Origin: Ectocarpus siliculosus
Lineage: Eukaryota; Sar; Phaeophyceae; Ectocarpales; Ectocarpaceae
Direction: 5' to 3'
Length of the DNA stretch: 52,472 nt
Assembly: GCA_000310025.1 (NCBI GenBank)
Contig: FN649726.1
Location: 2,816,146 to 2,868,617 of the forward strand
A model generated the notes under the pieces. The model was not told the DNA's origin, made no database searches, and saw only the letters and a program-made list of their open reading frames with translations. Of the stretch, positions 3,701 through 42,178 are shown one piece after another (position 1 is the first letter of the stretch; every line of letters begins with the position of its first letter). The position numbers and the translations under genes were made by a program.

Positions 3701-6057
3701 GCTGGAAGAAGAGACGAAAGGGGGTGTCGCGGAGTGGAGCAGATAATCCCCCCCCCCGACACACACACACTTTCCTAATTCTCGAACCACGCCGCACCCG
3801 CTACACAACGGTGCGGAAACCCACAAGACGAAGACAAGCAGCATCGGTTATAATAGGCGAAACAGAAGCAATTTCTTGCCATCTCAATCAACGCCATGAA
3901 CCAACCGTAACCGACTCCTTCTCCTGACACCAAACAATCGTGCTAAAAAAAAAACGCGCAATGCCGTATATACCACACTTTTGTACACATGGTCTGGTAC
4001 AACCGGGCGCTTCGCGCACCTTTCCCGTGGGGGGGGTGAGCGCGTGGATCATGCGCTTCGTCGGAGGGAGTACCATCCCCACCAAGTCGCGCGTAGAGGA
4101 GAGGAAGTCCCACGCCATGAGAGCCTGCTCCACGGTCTTGGAGCACCCGGACAACGCAGGGTCGCTGGAGCGACAGAGGGCAACACGAACAACAATCAGC
4201 GGGGGCAAGGGAGGGGTGTGTGGGCAAGAGGTATCGCGGGAAGACGCGGAAGGGGGGGGGGGGGGGGGGGGGGTATTCTGCGGTACAGCAGCGAGGTATG
4301 AGCACATCTCACTTGAGTCACACCGTTCCAAATCATTCCAACTATTGAGTCATACAGGGCATGGGTTCGTACGGCAAGTGTCACCAATGCTTCGGCGATC
4401 TCAGTCAAGACCCACTTCTACTGCTGCTGCTGTGTCGAAGCCCAGTGGAGACAGAAACACCGAACAGACACCCGTGCGGGATAGGAAGGTGGGGCTGCTG
4501 GATAGAGGCTGCTTCAACCCATGCGTCAAAAACTGAACGGGGTGCCGCTCGTAAAATCTTGCGGAAGACCGACATTCGGACGTGAAAGAACACGCACTTC
4601 CTTCGTGCAACGTAACACAAGAGATCCGGATCTTCTCACCCTCAGAGTGAACGCTCTCTGGCGTCAGTCTATGACGTCAGTCAATAATCAGCCTTCGACG
4701 TAAGGCCAGTCTTCTAACTTGTGCAAGTGCAATGCGATGACTGACTACTACTGTGCCGCACCATGGAAACAGCGGACTCGGTTTTCCCAGGGTCGGTGGG
4801 AGAAGCTCGCTCGACTCGAGAGGGGCCGCAGCTGGTCGCCCCATCTGCGTATCCTCCCTGCCGACCGATATGTACGAGGCAGACAGATGAAGACAGTCAC
4901 ATAAGACAGTCAGAAAAAGCAGTTACATAAGACAAGAAAGGCAATGAGACAGACAACATACGGACACAGACAAGACAGACAGACTAGGCGGATACGTAAG
5001 ACAGACAGACAGACAGGCAGGGGGGGAATACAAGAGGAAAGCACACGGCACTGACTGTGCAGCACCAACACTGAAACGTAGGTATTCAAGAAGGAGCGAA
5101 GGAGCAGACAACAACACAACACAACACCGACTTCCCCTTTTTAGTCTTTGTTGAAGAGAGCTGGTGTTACAACACAATCACTCCCAACAATAGGGATGCA
5201 ACCGAGACCACGCGACGGAGCGCCGGCGGGGACAAAGCCCAAAACATTTTGCCGCCGCTGGTGGGGCGTGGTGCAATCAGGCCGCCCACGGCTCTCTCTC
5301 CGCATTCGATAGATACATCATATCACACCGCTCCCCCGATACCCCTGCCCAACACGATTGGCGCAACAAGTCTGGCGGGGGCTTGGCCGCACCGAGGACT
5401 GAACCCAAAACACAGGCAGCCGAAGCGTGCACCTACAAAGCACGTACAGTAGCACGTCTTAAGGTTACAAGGGCGGGTTTCGTCTCTTCTCTTCGTGTGC
5501 CGCGTCAAGCAGAGCGGTGGTGCAAGATTTCCCACAGCAGTAGGTCAGCCCGCTAGATGGTGGTGCCATCGATCCAAAAAACAAAAACAGAGACAAAACA
5601 CACACGCTGTCTCTTTCTCTGGATCCCCAGGCTGGACGTCTGTCTGTCTGTCCAGTCCCCTCCGCGGGGAACCCTGTCGGAAAATCCGCGCACCACTACT
5701 TCAGCGATCGTGTCGTGTTTCTGCGGGTTTGTTTGTCTCTCTGCGGTAGATATTATGCCCAGGGGTTAGCATCCGATCTGGGCTGCCTTAGGCCTTGGTG
5801 GAGTATTTTGACCCCACCGCAACCGGGTTGGCTGTGACTGGAGGAGTGATTCTTCGCCTCGGAGAAGAGGTGGCAAACCCGCCTGCCGCCGCCTCTTCCG
5901 GGGGGCAGAGATTTCTACGGCACTCCTGGTTCTTGTTAGGAAGGTGGCCGCCTCAAGCGCCGGCGACAAGTCCAGTGTGACCGGTGGCCAGCGCGCCGGC
6001 ACCTTGGAGCAGATGGCCTACGCACACACGCCTTATGGCTATGGTGGCCATTTCTGC

Positions 6058-31544: not shown

Positions 31545-31724
31545 ATTGCGGCGCTTAGTTAAGGTGCCCGAACGTCCGGCAACCTGTGCCTCTTCGACGG
31601 TTTTAAATTATTACCAGTAATTACCTCGATTTGTTCCTGGCGTTTCATCACCAATCTGTGACTCTAACGATATATATATGGTGGTATTATATAATAATTA
31701 ATCAAGCGTTGACGAAACAATTTT

Positions 31725-32149
31725 TCGTCTGCCTCCCTATACAAAAAAAATGCTTCTCTTGGTTTCAGAGTAATTATTTATTTATTTTTTCCTGTGTGGA
31801 GATAAGATACCATGTGTCCTGCCGCCCGACCTCCCGCGTGTCGACCTACTCGGTCCGTCGGCATGCATGAAGGAGGTTACCAATCTGTTTGAAAGCGCTG
31901 GAGACGTCCTGCAGTCTCACGACTGCCATCCTGGACCGTTCAGGCCTGAATTATGTATCCCGCTTCCGGCTACCTTCGAATTTAGTTGCGAGAGCTGCCC
32001 CCCTCCACCGTCCACGGGCTGTCATAAGTGTGACTACCGTTTCGTCACTATTCCTTCAGTATGTCTTCATAGGCAATCGACAGTTCTGTTGTAGCATGCG
32101 CGGTCGAGTTATCGTGCCTTCCTCGCGTGCTGCTGCTGCGCACAACCGT
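31725..32149 (-). repeat. Inverted duplicated block A, left copy
   Basis: Nearly identical, in opposite orientation, to 39196-39616 (a few substitutions and small indels in A/T runs). On the minus strand both copies end a reading frame with GTITRPRMLQQNCRLP and KTY before a TGA (here at 32058-32056). The copies diverge sharply at an ACGGTTGTGCGC border. Confidence 0.9.
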
Positions 32150-32629
32150 GTAACGGTTCCCACCGAATGAATGACGTCAGTTTTGCGGCGAGATTTTTCA
32201 AGTCAGCCGAACTGGCTTTCTGTTCCGAAACATGGGAATTCTGGTCAGCTCTGTAGATGCCAACTTCCCAAAAGCGCTCGCGATCATGGCGGCCGATGCG
32301 CTCATGGACGCTGGCTTTCCCCTTGCGGCCTCTAGCAGCCCCAGAGCCCTGGGGCGTGCGCATGGAGAATGTTCTTCGCGGAATCTGTTATTCTCGTTTC
32401 TGCCTTCTTTGTGGCTCACGGGTAGTCGGGACGGGCAGCCACTCAATTTTGGGAACAGCAGCGCGAGCTACGTTTGCCTTCCCCCTCCCCACTCCTCCTT
32501 ACAATCCTCTACTCCCCACCACTCGCTCTTCTTAAGCGAATGTCTTCATCCTACGAAGTATCTTTCAACGTTCTCAACAACACTGGGCTGCTGTACATCG
32601 AGAACGGCTTCACCTACCGGGAGCACATC
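32150..32629. other. Segment unique to the left copy of the inverted duplication
   Basis: This 480 bp stands where the right copy has only 114 bp (39082-39195). Both strands have open frames (plus: VLNNTGLLYIENGFTYREH near 32560-32625; minus: frames through 32198-32446) and I cannot tell which, if either, is real. Confidence 0.5.
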
Positions 32630-32905
32630 AAGAAACCGCGGTACTGCTGTTTCTTGATGACAGCATCGACGACAGCAGCGACGACAGCAGTTCGGACGAG
32701 GACTCCAACGCCGACAACTCCAAGACCGGAGGCAGCGGGGCTGAATGCGGAGTGCCGGTCGTCAGCTCCCAGGAAAGCTGCAGCAACGATGCGTCCGCTC
32801 TTCCCGCTCTTCCCGCAAAGAAGCGCAGGTAATGCTTGCCGTGTTCGAAACTTCTTTCCCTTTGCTTTTTTTTAGTTTCGGCGGTCGTCAACATAGTACG
32901 TGCGC
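32630..32905 (+). repeat. Inverted duplicated block B, left copy
   Basis: 276 bp nearly identical to 38806-39081 in opposite orientation. On the plus strand a Ser/Asp-rich frame (LDDSIDDSSDDSSSDEDSN ... PALPAKKR) reaches a donor-like CGCAG|gtaatg, a 47-nt intron-like stretch ending tttttag, and a short continuation (FGGRQHSTCAKEYIKLMKEE) to a stop at 32957. The continuation is absent from the right copy, since the homology stops at ACGTGCGC. Confidence 0.85.
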
Positions 32906-32981
32906 AAAGGAGTACATAAAGTTGATGAAAGAGGAAGAGAAAGGGGACAGAAATTAAATAATTAATTAATTAATTAATTAA

Positions 32982-34424
32982 GGGAAATAGACACAAGTGG
33001 GTATACCCACCCCTTTCTCGGACAAAAGTGGGTACTCGAAAATCCAGCGCGCGCGCACTCCATAGGCGACCCCCAAACGACTCAAAACCNNNNNNNNNNN
33101 NNNNNNNNNNNNNNNNNNNNNNNNNNNNNNNNNNNNNNNNNNNNNNNNNNNNNNNNNNNNNNNNNNNNNNNNNNNNNNNNNNNNNNNNNNNNNNNNNNNN
33201 NNNNNNNNNNNNNNNNNNNNNNNNNNNNNNNNNNNNNNNNNNNNNNNNNNNNNNNNNNNNNNNNNNNNNNNNNNNNNNNNNNNNNNNNNNNNNNNNNNNN
33301 NNNNNNNNNNNNNNNNNNNNNNNNNNNNNNNNNNNNNNNNNNNNNNNNNNNNNNNNNNNNNNNNNNNNNNNNNNNNNNNNNNNNNNNNNNNNNNNNNNNN
33401 NNNNNNNNNNNNNNNNNNNNNNNNNNNNNNNNNNNNNNNNNNNNNNNNNNNNNNNNNNNNNNNNNNNNNNNNNNNNNNNNNNNNNNNNNNNNNNNNNNNN
33501 NNNNNNNNNNNNNNNNNNNNNNNNNNNNNNNNNNNNNNNNNNNNNNNNNNNNNNNNNNNNNNNNNNNNNNNNNNNNNNNNNNNNNNNNNNNNNNNNNNNN
33601 NNNNNNNNNNNNNNNNNNNNNNNNNNNNNNNNNNNNNNNNNNNNNNNNNNNNNNNNNNNNNNNNNNNNNNNNNNNNNNNNNNNNNNNNNNNNNNNNNNNN
33701 NNNNNNNNNNNNNNNNNNNNNNNNNNNNNNNNNNNNNNNNNNNNNNNNNNNNNNNNNNNNNNNNNNNNNNNNNNNNNNNNNNNNNNNNNNNNNNNNNNNN
33801 NNNNNNNNNNNNNNNNNNNNNNNNNNNNNNNNNNNNNNNNNNNNNNNNNNNNNNNNNNNNNNNNNNNNNNNNNNNNNNNNNNNNNNNNNNNNNNNNNNNN
33901 NNNNNNNNNNNNNNNNNNNNNNNNNNNNNNNNNNNNNNNNNNNNNNNNNNNNNNNNNNNNNNNNGAAATATGCCATGGATACGGTTTGGGAGGTTATGAG
34001 ACGTTCCGAGTCTACTCGATGTTCTGCCGTGCGGTGACGTGGAGGTCGATTTCCGCTCGATTTTCGCCGTTCGTAAGTGGACAAAAGTGGGTACAATTTG
34101 GACAAAAGTGGGTCAAAATACAGACACAAGTGGGTACATGAAAAATTAGTTGACGCCGGTGGGTATACCCACCGCGATGTCGGACATAAGTGGGCACTCT
34201 GGTGAGGCCTTGCGCGCATCGGCGGTATTAGGGCCAAAGGTGTGCCTAAAAGTGGGAAAAAATCAATGCCCGTGCTGTGTATGGTCCCTGGCTGTGTCGA
34301 CCAGGTGTCAGAATGGGGTTTTGAGTCGTTTGGGGGTCGCCTATGGAGTGCGCGCGCGCTGGATTTTCGAGTACCCACTTTTGTCCGAGAAAGGGGTGGG
34401 TATACCCACTTGTGTCTATTTCCC
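32982..34424. mobile_element. DNA transposon with 108-bp perfect terminal inverted repeats and TTAA-type flanks
   Basis: Left end GGGAAATAGACACAAGTGGG from 32982 and right end its exact reverse complement to 34424. The identity continues for at least 108 bp, up to the assembly gap on the left. Both sides are flanked by TTAATTAATTAA (32970-32981 and 34425-34436), consistent with a TTAA or TTAATTAA target duplication in a (TTAA)n tract. The inner right part (34078-34200) repeats GGACAAAAGTGGGTA-like units and a GGGTATACCC palindrome, as expected of subterminal transposase-binding sites. No transposase is visible; 875 bp are unknown. It could be a MITE-like, non-autonomous element; a piggyBac-type relation is suggested only by the target. 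Confidence 0.85.
33090..33964. other. Assembly gap (875 N)
   Basis: A run of N inside the TIR element. Its position directly at the point where the two inverted ends would stop being distinguishable suggests that the gap was caused by the repeat. Confidence 0.99.
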
Positions 34425-35339
34425 TTAATTAATTAAACAGGGATATATTGCGGGGCCCCCAAGAGAAGAATTGAAGAGGGAGAGATTTTGGGGACGCAGG
34501 TTCCGTGTCGCGAGTTAGCGACGTCGATGCCATTCCGTCAATTCCGGCACAAGCAGGGGCTACTAGATCCTGTCCCCTGCTTTTTATCCTTCCGTGGCGA
34601 GTTACATCTCTCCGCGCCTTCTAGAAGGAACCAAGCTCTTCTATGTTCCGTCTACACATCTGAATCCTAATAACAGTCACGCAAGGATCCCAAAACCCAG
34701 ATCGAGGGAGGAAGTTGGCACGAAAAATCCAAATGGGTGACCTGGCCACGGAACGCGGCAAATCATGATCGCGGATGACGAATATCCATCCGGAAGGACG
34801 GAACACAACCGCGAGAAACGGATGTTAACCCCTAATTCTTAATATGCACGGAACACAAAATAGCGACGGGAGACCTAAAATAGGGCAGGATGGTACCACC
34901 ATGGATCAGAGGTACACTGGCCAAAGTACGGGAAACCGTAAAAAATAATTCCGCTAAGACTATACAAATAACATGAAAAACACACGACGAATACGAGCAC
35001 GACTCGAAATTAGACTGGCTAAATGACGGGAAGACCGCGGAGATGTAAATCTACTGCGCAGTGAATGAATCTACGGGAAAAGTGCAGTGGTACGCGTACG
35101 AAACCTACAACGTGCGTACCCGAAAGCTACTAATAAGAAAACGATCACGAAACGAAAAATCACGACGAGAACCGGAACGGGACGGCGCGGGTCATACCCG
35201 CCAGACGGTACGAGGAACTGATACGCTACAGGCGAGTGGGAGACGTTCACAGCAAACAAAACAAGACAGTAAAGCAGCGGCACTACGCAACGAGAAGTTG
35301 GACATGACACAGATCTACGGAAAGGTCCCCAAACAGAAA
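34425..35339. other. Region between the TIR element and the Rep-like gene
   Basis: No gene seen. It may contain the 3' UTR and one end of the Rep-like element, but no terminal repeat could be recognised. Confidence 0.4.
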
Positions 35340-38300
35340 TCAGTACAAGCTAGCGCGAGACTTCCTCTTCCCATGGGAAGTCGTGGAGCAGGGGGAGCAC
35401 CGGATGCGTTGAAACTCCACGACGTCGGCGTCCGCGTCCTCCTCACCCCCGCGCACTCCGCACGATCGGTGGAGGTCCCCGTCGCACAGGTTGCACGCGA
35501 CCATCGCGATGTTGCCGGCCTTGGTGCACCCTGGCTCCACACACTTGGGGCAGACAATGAGCTGCAGGTCCTCCGATGCCGACGACGTGTCCGCCGCAGT
35601 ACGGCCGATGCGGTCCCACTGACGACGAGCGGGAGGCGGCGGCGGGGCGGCGGCGACGTCGGAGTCGGAGCCGGCGGCGGAGTCTGCGTCCACGGGGAAG
35701 TTGACGACCCCTGCCGGGGCGCGATGAGACTCCGCAATGTCGCGCATGATGCGCTCGCGGGCGATGTCCATGGCTCCCTCCAGCTCCAGGCGGTCGTGGG
35801 AGCACACCTTCGCCTGGTCGACCGTCATCTCGGAGAACTCGCGGTCCTGGTAGTCCCACTTCTCGAAGGACCGCTCACGCGCCCGCCCTGCCCGCCGGAG
35901 AAGAAGAGCAAGTAGGCGTCCTTGCGCGTAAAGAGCGATGGGGACATCAGCGCCGTGAAGTAGGCATCGGCGCGCGCGGCCTCCATAGCGAATGCGCTGG
36001 TCGGGCAGATCCACGTGTGGCTGGGCATCCCCTCCCCGTCGTTGATGTACCACGAGATCAGCTGCACCGGTGAGACGGAGATCCCGCGCAAGTGCTCCTG
36101 CTTGAAGCGCCGAAGGACACCCCAGAAGTTCTTCTTCCCGATCTCGGTTCGAAGCTCGGAGACGACGGATCGCTGGAGGGTGCGGTACTCGGTGAGGGCG
36201 ATATTGACCTCGGTCCGCGACACGCCCTTGGTGACCGTCTTGAAGTGTGATCGTCCTTCGTCCTTCGAGCAGTCCCCGACCATCCCTTCAACGAATAAAG
36301 ACATACGAATTGTGGGAGGGGAAACGCAAGGGAAGAAAAGAGAAGGATTAGCCACCGGCAAGATGAAATAATGTAACCGTCGAAGCAACAAAACGCAACC
36401 AGAAAAAAGTCCAGGAAGGAAAGGACGAAACGTACATGGGGTATGATAGAATAAGAAAATGTCGAGGGGGTACGCATGTGGAGAACATAAACAAAAAAAT
36501 GGAGAGGGTATGCAAGAGGAAAAGAGAGAAAGACGAGCAACAGGCAAGACGAAACCTATCTGTGGAAGCAGTAAAGGGCAAAGAACCAAAAACAAACGCT
36601 GACGAGAGAAGGAAGAAGCGTACTTGGGCGATGAACGCAAGGAACAGTAGGCAACAGAGACGGATGGGTAGACTTTATTCACAGATACAGGGCACCGAAA
36701 CACACCGTCGGAAAGCAGGGCCACGGACGACAGACAACACATCAAACAACGAACATAAAGGAGCTACAGAAGACGTGTCTCCACTTGAAAATGAGATGCC
36801 TAAAAATACAGACGGACATTAAAGCTCTACAGAAGTCTCGAAGAGAAGAACTCACCGCTGAATGTCTGTTGCTTGATGAGGCGCTTGATGGTGATCTTCA
36901 CCTTGTCCGCCGCAGTCCACCCGCAGTCCACCCGAAGCTTCCTCCTCAAGGCCGCCTCCTCCTTCTTGCTGTCACCGAAGTCCTTCTTCAGGGCCAGGGT
37001 CCAGATGCCCTGGAGGTGTAGGTTTCCGTTCATGTCTCCGCGCTCCATGCTGGTGACGCCACGAACTGCACGCTTCGTCATCCATGCGCAGCCTTCGTTG
37101 AAGAGGCTCTCCTTGATGTTGGCGCCACTGCGGTTGCCGATGGTCACGGAGAAGTCGTGTGGAGCGCCGACGCCGCTGTCGATGATGTCATCGGCGATGT
37201 CCCCTGTGGTCGGACAGATCCAAGAGGGCTGGCTCCCTGGAAGCAGGAGGACTCTTGCGAGGGCGACCAGGACGGCGAGCCGATGTCGCAATCGCAGAAG
37301 GAGTGACGGGGGCCGCTGGTGCAGACGTAGACGGTGCTGTCGTTGAAGGAGGAGATGCCGACCAAGGTCGTGGAGAAGAGGGCGTCGAAGGCTGAGAAGC
37401 TGCTCCACCCGCTGCCCCGCCCCCGCCGTCGGGCGGGGCAGCGGGACGACCGGTGTCCTTGCGGGGACGACCTGTGTCCTTGCGGGGACGACCTGTGTCC
37501 TTGCGGGGACGACCTGTGTCCTTGCGGGGACGACCCGGACCGCGACGCGAGGAGATCTCCGAAGCAGGAGAGGGAGGGGCGGAAGCGGCATCCTTGCGGG
37601 GGCGTCCAGGGCGACGGCGATGGACGTCTCCGGCTGCGGCTCCGGCACGGCTGGCGGCGGCCTGGGCTCCAACAGACCGACCCCGCGGGCGCCCGACAGG
37701 ACGACGAGGCGAGGTAGTGGCGGGAGGACGGGTAGAAGAAGGGGAAGAGGGAGCGGCGATAGCCTCGCTGGAGTCGTCCGCCGTGGGAGGACGGCGAGGC
37801 CGGGTGTCATGTCCTGTCGTGGGAAAGGAAGTGGCGGGGACAGAGCATAAAGTAGCGAGGAAAGAATAAGATGATATGGCATACAAATACAAACGCTGTG
37901 CAATAGCAATATTTGTTGAGGCAGCGAGAGTAAGGCGGGACGATGACAAAATACCTATCCCAACAAGAAAAAACTATAACGACCACCCAAGTACTCAACA
38001 CTTGAACACATAACGCATTGGGGACTGGACGCAAGACACCAATGATGGTAAAAGCAGACCAAAGACAAGAACAGTGAGCAGGAAGAAGAGCAACCAACCA
38101 AAGGAAGTGCGTCAAGGACGACGAAGTGCTGCAGTTGTCTGGAGGAAGCAAAAAAGAGGAAGATGATACATTGAGCCATACAGACAGACACAAAACCGAA
38201 CTCGATAACAGGCAATAACCTCGCCTAAAGCAGTGAACGCACCTGAGTTGCTCCTGGACCTGGACCTGGTGACGACGGCGTCACCAGGATCTATTCCAGG

Positions 38301-38533
38301 TGCTTGCGGAGAAGAGAGGGGTCGACCACGACCCGCCCCCCGCGCGATCGCCCCCCGAGCGGGCGTAGAAGAAGCACTCGTAGCCGGGTCATGAACGGTA
38401 GACGAAGGCTCGTCCAGGGCCGAAGTCGACGCGGTGAAGACGTCGGAACTGCGCACGGCCACGTCTGACGTCGTCGGGACTGGGGCCGCAGCCGCAGCAC
38501 CTGCGGAAGAGGCTGCGGCCTCTTCAGCGCAGC
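35340..38533 (-). pseudogene. HUH/Rep-like endonuclease with AT-hooks and PHD finger, Replitron-like transposon gene (damaged)
   Basis: Exons: 38533-38243 (Ala/Ser/Thr-rich), 37813 to about 37240 (AT-hooks), about 37236-36856, and 36285-35340. The third exon has PHDFSVTIG, then MNGNLHLQGIW (Rep motif II, HLQG, near 37007-37018). The phase-1 junction joins QTFSG to MVGDCSKDEGRSHF, the place of Rep motif III (YxxK). Here the residue expected to be the nicking Tyr is Asp (codon 36272-36274). A PHD finger follows: CPKC, VACNLCDGDLHRSC, CSPC. AT-hooks: GRPRKDT repeated four times, RRPGRPRKSP and others. Two frame breaks, near 37240 (AT-hook frame to WICPTTGD) and near 35885-35912 (DAYLLFF to RSFEKWDY), plus the missing Tyr suggest a dead copy. 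Rep-type HUH transposons of eukaryotes other than Helitrons (Replitrons) are the best match that I know. Assignment rests on motifs only. Confidence 0.5.
37453..37545 (-). repeat. 21-bp tandem array encoding four identical AT-hook units
   Basis: Four near-perfect copies of a 21-bp unit (plus strand TGTCCTTGCGGGGACGACC followed by two bases) encode GRPRKDT each time. Identity at the DNA level points to recent expansion. Confidence 0.9.
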
Positions 38534-38805
38534 CTAAACGAAAAAAACGAAAGAAGAGGCGAAGGGTATGAGTATCAGTTGAGAAGAAAGAAGAGGAGAT
38601 ACTTCGAAGTATTGTTGCGTAAATGAGTTAATTGTATTTCGCACAAGGTGAACAACAAGAAGACTAAGTTAAATGTACAGGCGGCGCAAAAGCACAAGAA
38701 AGGGAGACACAGGGGAACAAAAACCAGGAGGGGGAGGGAAAAGGCTATCTACAGCACCCAACGACAGACGGTAAGAAGGAACAGGCAAAAACAACGAACC
38801 AACTC

Positions 38806-39081
38806 GCGCACGTACTATGTTGACGACCGCCGAAACTAAAAGAAAGCAAAGGGAAAGAAGTTTCGAACACGGCAAGCATTACCTGCGCTTCTTTGCGGGA
38901 AGAGCGGGAAGAGCGGACGCATCGTTGCTGCAGCTTTCCTGGGAGCTGACGACCGGCACTCCGCATTCAGCCCCGCTGCCTCCGGTCTTGGAGTTGTCGG
39001 CGTTGGAGTCCTCGTCCGAACTGCTGTCGTCGCTGCTGTCGTCGATGCTGTCATCAAGAAACAGCAGTACCGCGGTTTCTT
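38806..39081 (-). repeat. Inverted duplicated block B, right copy
   Basis: 276 bp matching 32630-32905 in reverse. The minus-strand reading here that ends RSA|G at the donor CGCAG|gtaatg is in the correct phase to join exon 38533-38243, so block B may be the 5' exon of the Rep-like gene. The plus strand also has a good frame (see 39062-39289), so this is unresolved. Confidence 0.85.
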
Positions 39082-39289
39082 CCTGCCGGCTGGGGTCCCC
39101 AAGGTCGCCTCTATTCCTGCCAAGGTGTGGATCATCAAACGCTCGGACGACTCCGCGATTCGGGCCGTCGCACAACAACTCAGGAAGGACCTGAAACGGT
39201 TGTGCGCAGCAGCAGCACGCGAGGCAGGCACGATAACTCGACCACGCATGCTACAACAGAACTGTCGATTGCCTATAAAGACATACTGA
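39062..39289 (+). pseudogene. C-terminal exon fragment of an unrecognised gene
   Basis: The plus strand reads QYRGFFLPAGVPKVASIPAK, then WIIKRSDDSAIRAVAQQL, LKRLCAAAAREAGTITRP and ends NCRLPIKTY before TGA at 39287-39289. Its composition is strongly protein-like, unlike random ORFs in the window. No upstream partner exon was found, and the Rep-like gene runs on the other strand. The left inverted copy keeps only the last ~30 codons on the minus strand (stop 32058-32056). Probably a captured or duplicated gene end. Confidence 0.5.
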
Positions 39290-39616
39290 AGGAATAGTGA
39301 CGAAACGGTAGTCACACTTATGACAGCCCGTGGACGGTGGAGGGGGGCAGCTCTCGCAACTAAATTCGAAGGTAGCCGGAAGCGGGATACATAATTCAGG
39401 CCTGAACGGTCCAGGATGGCAGTCGTGAGACTGCAGGACGTCTCCAGCGCTTTCAAACAGATTGGTAACCTCCTTCATGCATGCCGACGGACCGAGTAGG
39501 TCGACACGCGGGAGGTCGGGCGGCAGGACACATGGTATCTTATCTCCACACAGGAAAAAATAAATAAATAATTACTCTGAAACCAAGAGAAGCAATTTTT
39601 TTGTAGGGAGACGAAA
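39196..39616 (+). repeat. Inverted duplicated block A, right copy
   Basis: Counterpart of 31725-32149. It ends in AAATAATTACTCTGAAACCA and AGCAATTTTTTTGTAGGGAG, after which the two sides are unrelated. Confidence 0.9.
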
Positions 39617-42178
39617 TAAACAACGATTAATTAATCAATCAATCGCGTTCGTTCGTTCGTCGTGTGTGTGTTGTTTGTTGTTGTTGTTGTGTGGTGGTAA
39701 ACATTGCATTAATATGATAATAGCAATAACAGCAGAGGATGGATGTGGATAGGTATGTATGTATAGTACGTATTATCCGTCACACACAGCAGCAGCAGCA
39801 GCAGCAGTCAGTCTTCTTCTCGTCATGATGATTGATTGACTGCTTGCTTGCATGATGATGATGTGCGACAGAAAGAAGGAACGGCGGCAGCAGCAGCAGC
39901 AGCAGCAGCAGTCAGTCAGTAAAAAAAATACACCTCGAGCCAGACTACAACAATATCATTGGGTCACGTAAAAAAACGATAAAATGGCGTCTCATGGGTG
40001 CCCATGAGGTACTACATAGGACCAAGAGGTGCAATGATGGGGGCCACCACATAATAATAGATAGATGGGAATAACCCTCTCTCCTCATGATGACTGGATG
40101 GAATGAGATGGGCACAAAAAAAATGAGAAAAAAGAGAGGAAAAAGGAAAAAAAGGTTGGGGGACTATTATAGGGCATTAGCCGGTGCACAGTCGAACGCA
40201 CGTCGACTTATGTGAATGTCATACGCAGGGACGGCACTCAATCTATTCCACTGGTCACGGTAATGCTCATACCGGCAAATTTTTACCCTCTAAAGCATAG
40301 ACTCCTGGTTTTTTACCATCCTCGACATACTCTCAGCGATGCTGATGCAACACCACAACCACCCACTACTCCTCCTTCCTGAGGACCTCCCCATCCGTCG
40401 CGTGCACCAATAATTCTACGCTACACGTAGAACTCACTGCACAAACAAACCTAACCGCGCAGATGATGAGCAGTTTGCATAGACTACTACGGCTGCGGTA
40501 CAGTATCTTGGTACGTAGACTATACTTTTTGGGGGGGCTGGCGCGTGCAGCACACACACGCACACCATCATGTTGCCGCTACTAACCTGCTGCTGCTACA
40601 CTGCCGTGGCACACACATACATGCCGCGGATGGATCGGTGGTTGGTTGTTGTGTTGGGTCACAGAAAAGGGAGCAGCATCCGCCATGAGTCAATCCCATC
40701 AGCAAGCAGGGACGCTCGCTCGTCGCGTGTGCTGGGTGTGGGAAGTTGATGGCGGTTGGGGCTCAAGCGATGAGTATATAGCGAACGAAGGGCAAGCTCG
40801 CGAGCAACCGCTCCGTCTGTAGCTTGCAACCTGCCCTCCTTTCGTCTACGTTCAGCATGAAACGAGGAGAGGAGGAGAATGAACCAGACATGCTACACTG
40901 CTGTAATAGCATATAATATTGGTAGGTAGGCCCATGTCTATTTATTTGCGGGGCCATTCTTACAACAGCAGCAGCAATATGCACACCGATCGGTTGTAAG
41001 TCTAGTAGAACAGCGGTGCTTCTTGCAGCAGGGATGCAAGAGGCGTTAGTTTCTTGGTTCATCTGAAGTCCCTATTCGTAGCCTGCAAACAGACACGGTG
41101 TGGTTTGTCTCACACAGACACCCACAGCACAGTGTTGTTGCCGTAGGACCGGCGGCAAAACAACAGCAACCAGCACGGACTATTGTCATTCAGAGTTCGT
41201 GATCAGCGTCGTATGCATACATGAGACAGATTGTCGCGGTGAGCGGAAGCCAAACACGAAAAACCTCCTCTTGGGGGACCGACTTTTACAGTCAACGCGT
41301 CGTCAGCACTCCTACTCCTGAGGCGGAATAACTGCGCCAACGTCAAAACCAGCAACGAACGCGAATGAATGCCGCCGCCGTCCTGAAGCTCAACAGGAGG
41401 AGCTCCGTGAGAGCAGGCCTGTCCACCTCTTGGGGCGACTCTCCGCAAGCGAACAATAACATTTCCACGATGAGGCTCAAAATCAACCGTCTTTCTTTTC
41501 GTATCTACAGCAGTACAAAGTTTTAACTTTCCTCACTCGAAAGCTGGCCCGACAAAGTGACAGCCATCATCATGACTTTGCTGCGCGAAAAAAATCAGTC
41601 TACATAAATGAGCACTGGCTGGCGCGTCAAACAAACGTGAACAGAAAGGTATGACTGCCGCCCAGGACAGACAGATGGATGGGACCGACCAACTGAAACA
41701 AAAAACACGATGTCCCTTCCCCCCGTCGGCGGCGCAACCTACGCCGCTAGTGAGTACGCCCTCCCTTCCACTCCCGGTTTTTGACCTCGCACTGCGTACA
41801 ACAACAACGGCCGCTCTCTTATTGCATACTTTGGGCGAGACAATGCTTAGCTGGTGTTGGGCAAAGTTCAACAAATACATGCCCTTGTCTGCCACACCTC
41901 TGCCTTTCTGCATCTACATGTACTACGGCTCGTGCTCCACTCCACTGGGGCCGGCCTACCATGCGTGTTTTACACAGGAGTTATGCAGTCGGCAACAGAG
42001 GGTCGTTCCAGGACCGCGACAGTTCAACAACACCGACCAACCCCCGACCGAACGCGAGTGAATAACCTGCCCTCACCTACACACAACACGCGCAAACCAG
42101 GTTGAGGTAAGGGGACGATACGACTGCTGTAGAGGCGAGGGCCCGCTGCAATCACCGCGAGCTGCCGACGTAAGTCAG
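39617..42178. other. Microsatellite-rich intergenic region
   Basis: Contains (TTCG)n at 39647-39662, TGTTG-rich tracts, (CAG)n at 39788-39808 and 39886-39911, and (ATG)n-like stretches. No exon could be supported between here and the stop of the coiled-coil gene at 42179; a 99-codon ORF at 40763-41062 (minus) has no recognisable feature. The 3' UTR of the coiled-coil gene should lie just below 42179. Confidence 0.5.

Follow-up and report, generated by a model that had tools for sequence, protein, structure and literature searches.

A Replitron of the brown alga Ectocarpus siliculosus with AT-hooks and a PHD-like zinc finger, very probably in a decayed copy

Results

A Replitron gene and its relatives in the genome

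We found that a 52,472-nt stretch of the Ectocarpus siliculosus contig FN649726.1 (hereafter the window, in whose positions all coordinates are given) very probably holds one of the few copies of a Replitron DNA transposon in this brown alga, and a decayed one. The gene lies on the minus strand, between a putative first-exon start at 38533 and a stop codon at 35340-35342. Its joined exons match the Pfam family Replitron_HUH (PF21859) over 128/128 positions (E 6e-49, 166 bits against a cut-off of 28.5), a clear match by which the gene is a Replitron transposase itself and not a remote Rep relative. Downstream of the intron the protein reads GMVGDCSKDEG, and the following stretch matches Replitron_C (PF21860) up to positions 9-77 of 77 and in the right order, below the cut-off for both the joined exons (E 0.16) and the second exon alone (E 0.031). 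A search of the genome with the Replitron_C profile gave two matches, neither of them over the cut-off.

An earlier reading of this DNA, made from its letters only, had described a Rep-like relative of Replitrons: the link to Replitrons holds, while "merely Rep-like" gives way to the clear Replitron_HUH match. The HLQ motif, the phase-consistent intron, GDCSKDEG and the AT-hook array were all present on the minus strand as this sequence-only reading had them, but it had overlooked the strong Pfam family model and two breaks of the coding frame.

Next we examined the genome for copies (189 Mb in 492 contigs; the window is on C1, and other contigs are numbered C2, C10, C17, C18 and so on). In keeping with a brown-algal host, this genome has at least 150 matches to the EsV-1-7 family, which is reported to be expanded in brown algae (PMC7457493); 150 of 880 candidates were scored, and all of these exceed the cut-off. 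Searching with the protein gave 15 matching exon places, two of them in the window. PF21859 gave 13 exon matches, 12 of them over the cut-off (two being the window's own), and matched none of 14 control genomes. The exon matches are distributed over C1, C17, C420, C18 (two copies), C10 and C2, and the model search also picked up a fragment on C44. Copies with 51-72% identity to the window in their exon parts again have HLQ, YxSK, the finger and an intron at this position, so these features are not chance.

Several of these copies have features of their own. On C18 (locus L018 3298-6027), two diverged Replitron copies stand head to head, with palindrome arms 96-98% alike. The isolated C44 fragment (locus L057, about 4808-4912) is from the Tyr exon of a more distant Replitron, GYCCKDSGKPQYKT, and scores over the Pfam cut-off. 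The C10 (locus L019, about 4906-5206) and C2 copies show an apparent extra intron, with a GTAAG donor after RRFK, that is absent from the window lineage. A third-frame reading of the window before SWICPTTG (SSFSAFDALF...) was dropped, as the AT-hook frame of C17 and C10 runs straight into the HUH domain.

Folded alone, the first HUH exon is modelled at low confidence (pLDDT 61) as strand-helix-strand-strand-helix-strand, the third strand carrying HLQ; we take this to be the order of the HUH palm. The TnpA proteins of ISDra2 and ISHp608 account for 10 of the 50 Foldseek matches listed, at E values of 0.015 or worse that are not significant, and VIA-align ranked other ferredoxin-like folds first. 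Searched by sequence, solved structures gave four unrelated matches to the first HUH exon (E 0.87 or worse) and none to the finger region. Of the HUH fold suggested by the sequence-only reading, the palm order is seen in this low-confidence model, and the best matches are generic ferredoxin-like folds. The model is compatible with an HUH palm and not decisive; it is the Pfam match that places the gene among the Replitrons.

Table 1. Positions of the Replitron gene, its lesions and the surrounding element copies in the window
Feature	Position	Strand	Basis
Partial copy A (5' part), opposite orientation, beside copy B	31722..32905	+	shared 5' end, sequence match
Replitron copy B with gene; rearranged 5' region, nested repeat inside	32932..39617	-	shared ends
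Nested TIR element in copy B, 120-bp inverted repeats 100% alike	32970..34436	.	repeat analysis
C4HC3 PHD-like zinc finger	about 35388..35552	-	spacing, ligand alignment
YxxK-motif exon and C-terminal domain	35888..36286	-	PF21859 E 1.7e-11; weak Replitron_C match
Asp codon at YxxK (nicking Tyr) position	36272-36274	-	Tyr in 7/7 other places
Intron GT...AG, 570 bases, phase 1	36286..36855	-	position common to C17 and C10
HUH palm exon part	36854..37228, exon end 36856	-	PF21859 positions 1-94
HLQ motif	37010-37018	-	sequence
4 extra bases vs C17 and C420	approx. 37231-37234	-	three-copy DNA alignment
AT-hook array, 7 GRP cores	approx. 37254..37697	-	GRP core motif

Lesions of the window copy

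The sequence-only reading had singled out the Asp codon and asked whether other copies of the same genome have Tyr in its place. This is the case for all seven of the other places (C17, C420, two on C18, C10, C2 and C44), five of which are aligned, the Tyr of C2 and C44 having been seen separately from the Tyr-exon alignment; one of the C18 copies reads YRSK and not YCSK. With Tyr at the same position in all seven, the Asp is private to the window copy. It is decay and not new chemistry.

The coding frame of the window is furthermore broken twice, by a gain of four bases and a loss of one. Relative to C17 and C420, which are its closest copies and each of which has other deletions of its own, the window has 4 extra bases where the AT-hook frame meets that of the HUH domain, and is 1 base short near 35875, where the frame is lost upstream of the finger. 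At the site of the 4 extra bases, the frames of C17 and C420 continue from the AT-hooks into the HUH domain and that of C10 does likewise; since C17 and C10 keep this frame unbroken, it is the window copy that has the break. The two breaks and the private Asp bear out the description of the gene as degraded.

We considered whether collapsed or mis-joined repeats in the assembly could have produced both the Asp and the frame breaks. The same element copy does hold inverted duplications and an 875-base gap, but about 1.9-3.3 kb separate the three lesions from the gap and the stretch containing them otherwise aligns to C17 at 96.5% identity over 4,044 alignment columns, and we regard such an artefact as unlikely. 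Still less probable is that the true nucleophile is the Tyr of EYR at 36185-36187, in which case the Asp in GDCSK would be no catalytic loss. The EYR Tyr is invariant in 6/6 aligned rows, the window included; against it, the Tyr of YxxK, which is the usual motif III of Rep proteins, is kept in 7/7 other places, one of them without the neighbouring Cys, and the frame breaks of the window stand whichever Tyr nicks.

Returning to the window as a decayed Replitron copy, we examined the ratio of non-synonymous to synonymous change. Between deep lineages, and for pairs with computable dS, dN/dS is about 0.34-0.49 in the first HUH exon, 0.25-0.39 in the finger region and about 0.12-0.19 in the Tyr exon. 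Recent pairs are mixed and have small counts, with about 0.25 for the Tyr exon of window and C17, 0.35 for the first HUH exon of window and C420, and up to about 0.6-1.3, or no synonymous change, in others; the finger region of window and C420 differs by 10 non-synonymous and 0 synonymous changes. From the deep-lineage dN/dS and the 96.5% identity to C17, we read this as a family that probably evolved as a working protein and of which the window copy would have died recently.

Ends and copies of the element

The 5' end of the element, ATTTCGTCTGCCTCCC, lies at 39617 in the copy that holds the gene (copy B) and again at 31722 in the partial copy beside it, and is also found on C16, C17, C83 (twice), C420 and C474. 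The 3' end, AATTTCTGTCCCCTTTCTCTTCCT, lies at 32932 and also on C16, C83 and C420, with a short match on C24, and the diverged C10 and C2 copies close with a similar AATTTCTTTCCATTTCTCCT, beyond which the flanks differ. The C420 copy measures about 5.55 kb between its ends. The C16 and C83 copies have both ends but are internally deleted and have no gene, and in this resemble non-autonomous derivatives. For the two-ended copies (C16, C83, C420 and the window), whose ends are uncertain by a few bases, we found no convincing target-site duplication (TSD) or exact terminal direct repeat.

Other repeats accompany these copies. An inverted 3' end motif of the C10/C2 type, flanked on both sides by GAAAATAGTATAGG, precedes the 5' end of a C83 copy immediately (locus L054 4552-4614). 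Within copy B, the nested TIR element includes an 875-base run of N (33090-33964), and dozens of places match its end, frequently as inverted pairs about 1.2-1.4 kb apart. Elsewhere in the window, an open frame at 22468-23559 matches reverse transcriptase weakly (RVT_1, E 8.5e-6, which does not reach the cut-off); the other nine window open frames scanned gave no Pfam match.

Domestication, which the sequence-only reading had offered as the alternative to degradation and by which the host would have kept the protein as a non-nicking binder of DNA or chromatin with the Asp as an adaptation, could draw on the HLQ, AT-hooks and finger ligands that the window copy still has, but it is highly improbable given an Asp in a single copy only, two frame breaks, element ends both still recognisable in the window copy, damage in C17 and C420 as well, and a repeated element whose sharp ends, few copies and internally deleted derivatives without a gene speak against it.

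A PHD-like finger and AT-hooks

Next, we examined the domains that accompany the HUH nuclease. The finger follows the pattern C-x4-C-x10-C-x2-C-x4-H-x2-C-x20-C-x2-C, and its eight ligands (C112, C117, C128, C131, H136, C139, C160 and C163) are invariant in the 6/6 rows of an alignment that leaves aside C17, where a loss of 10 bases cuts the finger. Because C10 and C2 have Ser for the first Cys of CPKC, the first ligand pair is probably C-x4-C. None of the PHD-type Pfam profiles reached its cut-off, the best E value among six members being 0.097; the window finger scores 9.8 bits where the cut-off is 28 and 8.7 bits where it is 24. Znf_SCAND3 outscores the PHD models on the finger (best E 0.0068, in 4/6 members), and a structure model of the finger was uninformative. 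With PHD scores below cut-off and a better score for Znf_SCAND3, "PHD-like", by spacing alone, is the most that can be said: the full set of zinc ligands noticed by the sequence-only reading is there, its identification as a PHD finger is not upheld.

The number of GRP cores varies from seven in the window to six in C17, four in C420 and two each in C10 and C2. Part of the window array is a 21-bp tandem unit present in 4.4 copies (37443-37535), the number of which differs between copies. Pfam AT_hook was reported in only one of the five proteins scanned, and there below the cut-off, so the AT-hook call rests on the GRP core motif.

The ends of the element are themselves AT-rich. The AT fraction of the terminal 100 bp is 0.62-0.68 at 8/8 5' ends and 0.57-0.70 at 6/6 3' ends, compared to a median of 0.45, a 95th percentile of 0.58 and a 99th percentile of 0.63 among 100-mers drawn at random from the window. 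As a check of target-site preference, the 100-bp 5' flanks gave a mixed result (0.44-0.66 at eight ends). Predicted DNA hairpins at six 3' ends were weak for the most part and dissimilar between copies. Since the element ends are AT-rich, binding of the element's own ends is a putative role of the AT-hooks that is as good a guess as the choice of insertion sites in chromatin, which the sequence-only reading had suggested for a PHD finger plus AT-hooks.

Discussion

Taken together, the transposon in the window is of a known kind and has decayed. The protein of this family would be a single-Tyr HUH endonuclease, in which HLQ presumably shares in metal binding and the Tyr of YCSK would nick the element end and hold the DNA covalently, after which a single-stranded or replicative intermediate would be moved. 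The fused AT-hooks and the C-terminal zinc finger most likely serve for docking on DNA or chromatin. Having lost the nicking Tyr and its frame, the window copy cannot act itself and would be inactive, moved at best in trans by another copy.

Y1 transposases of the IS200/IS605 group have a single Tyr, as has the family described here, and TnpA of ISDra2 and ISHp608 is among the Foldseek matches of the first HUH exon; however, these systems are prokaryotic, and the gene here has no meaningful sequence match to solved structures. The HLQG and YCxK-like motifs presumably resemble those of CRESS-DNA (circovirus-type) Rep, but the gene here is part of an interspersed repeated element, and no Rep family was reported by Pfam for this protein. 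Helitrons share with it a eukaryotic host and an HUH nuclease, and no TSD was seen here either, whereas the gene matches Replitron_HUH and no Helitron or helicase family was reported by Pfam for the pieces scanned. No relatives were found in viral contigs (with narrow patterns), in genome contigs (with a pattern) or in phages (with the protein of the first HUH exon); as the patterns are narrow or the data are from prokaryotes and phages, this absence says little.

The defining paper of Replitrons is that of Craig in PNAS in 2023. We made the comparison through Pfam PF21859/PF21860 and a review (PMC10741241), which gives Replitrons direct repeats of 5-11 bp, TSDs of 2-8 bp and a length of 0.9-4 kb. 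The element has in common with them an HUH domain matching over the full profile, HLQ and the Tyr motif, gene-less copies and, with a Replitron_C score below the cut-off, a correctly ordered C-terminal stretch. It differs from the description in that review by its length (about 5.55 kb for C420 against 0.9-4 kb) and by a TSD and a terminal direct repeat that were not found at the inferred ends, and possibly by the AT-hooks and C4HC3 finger on its protein. Searching the literature for a PHD finger with a transposase and an AT-hook, we found no such transposon by title among the papers listed. In a 2025 survey of transposons in Ectocarpus (PMC12477816), co-authored by R. J. Craig, Table 1 has Helitrons (13 families) and unknown classes, and the main text contains the word Replitron 0 times.

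We tentatively propose, as a possibility that we would not yet favour, a brown-algal Replitron lineage, unnamed in the main text of that survey, whose single polypeptide would combine an HUH nickase with an array of AT-hooks and a zinc finger that selection has conserved, and would thus carry its own reader of chromatin or of the element's AT-rich ends. For the catalytic Tyr that is missing in one copy, the lesson is to compare sister copies before proposing domestication. The lasting interest is in a probably brown-algal Replitron lineage whose AT-hooks and zinc finger recur in diverged copies, which places Replitrons in a brown alga with DNA-binding and possibly chromatin-binding additions. 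If these accessory domains steer insertion or bind AT-rich ends, the recognition of Replitron ends becomes testable.
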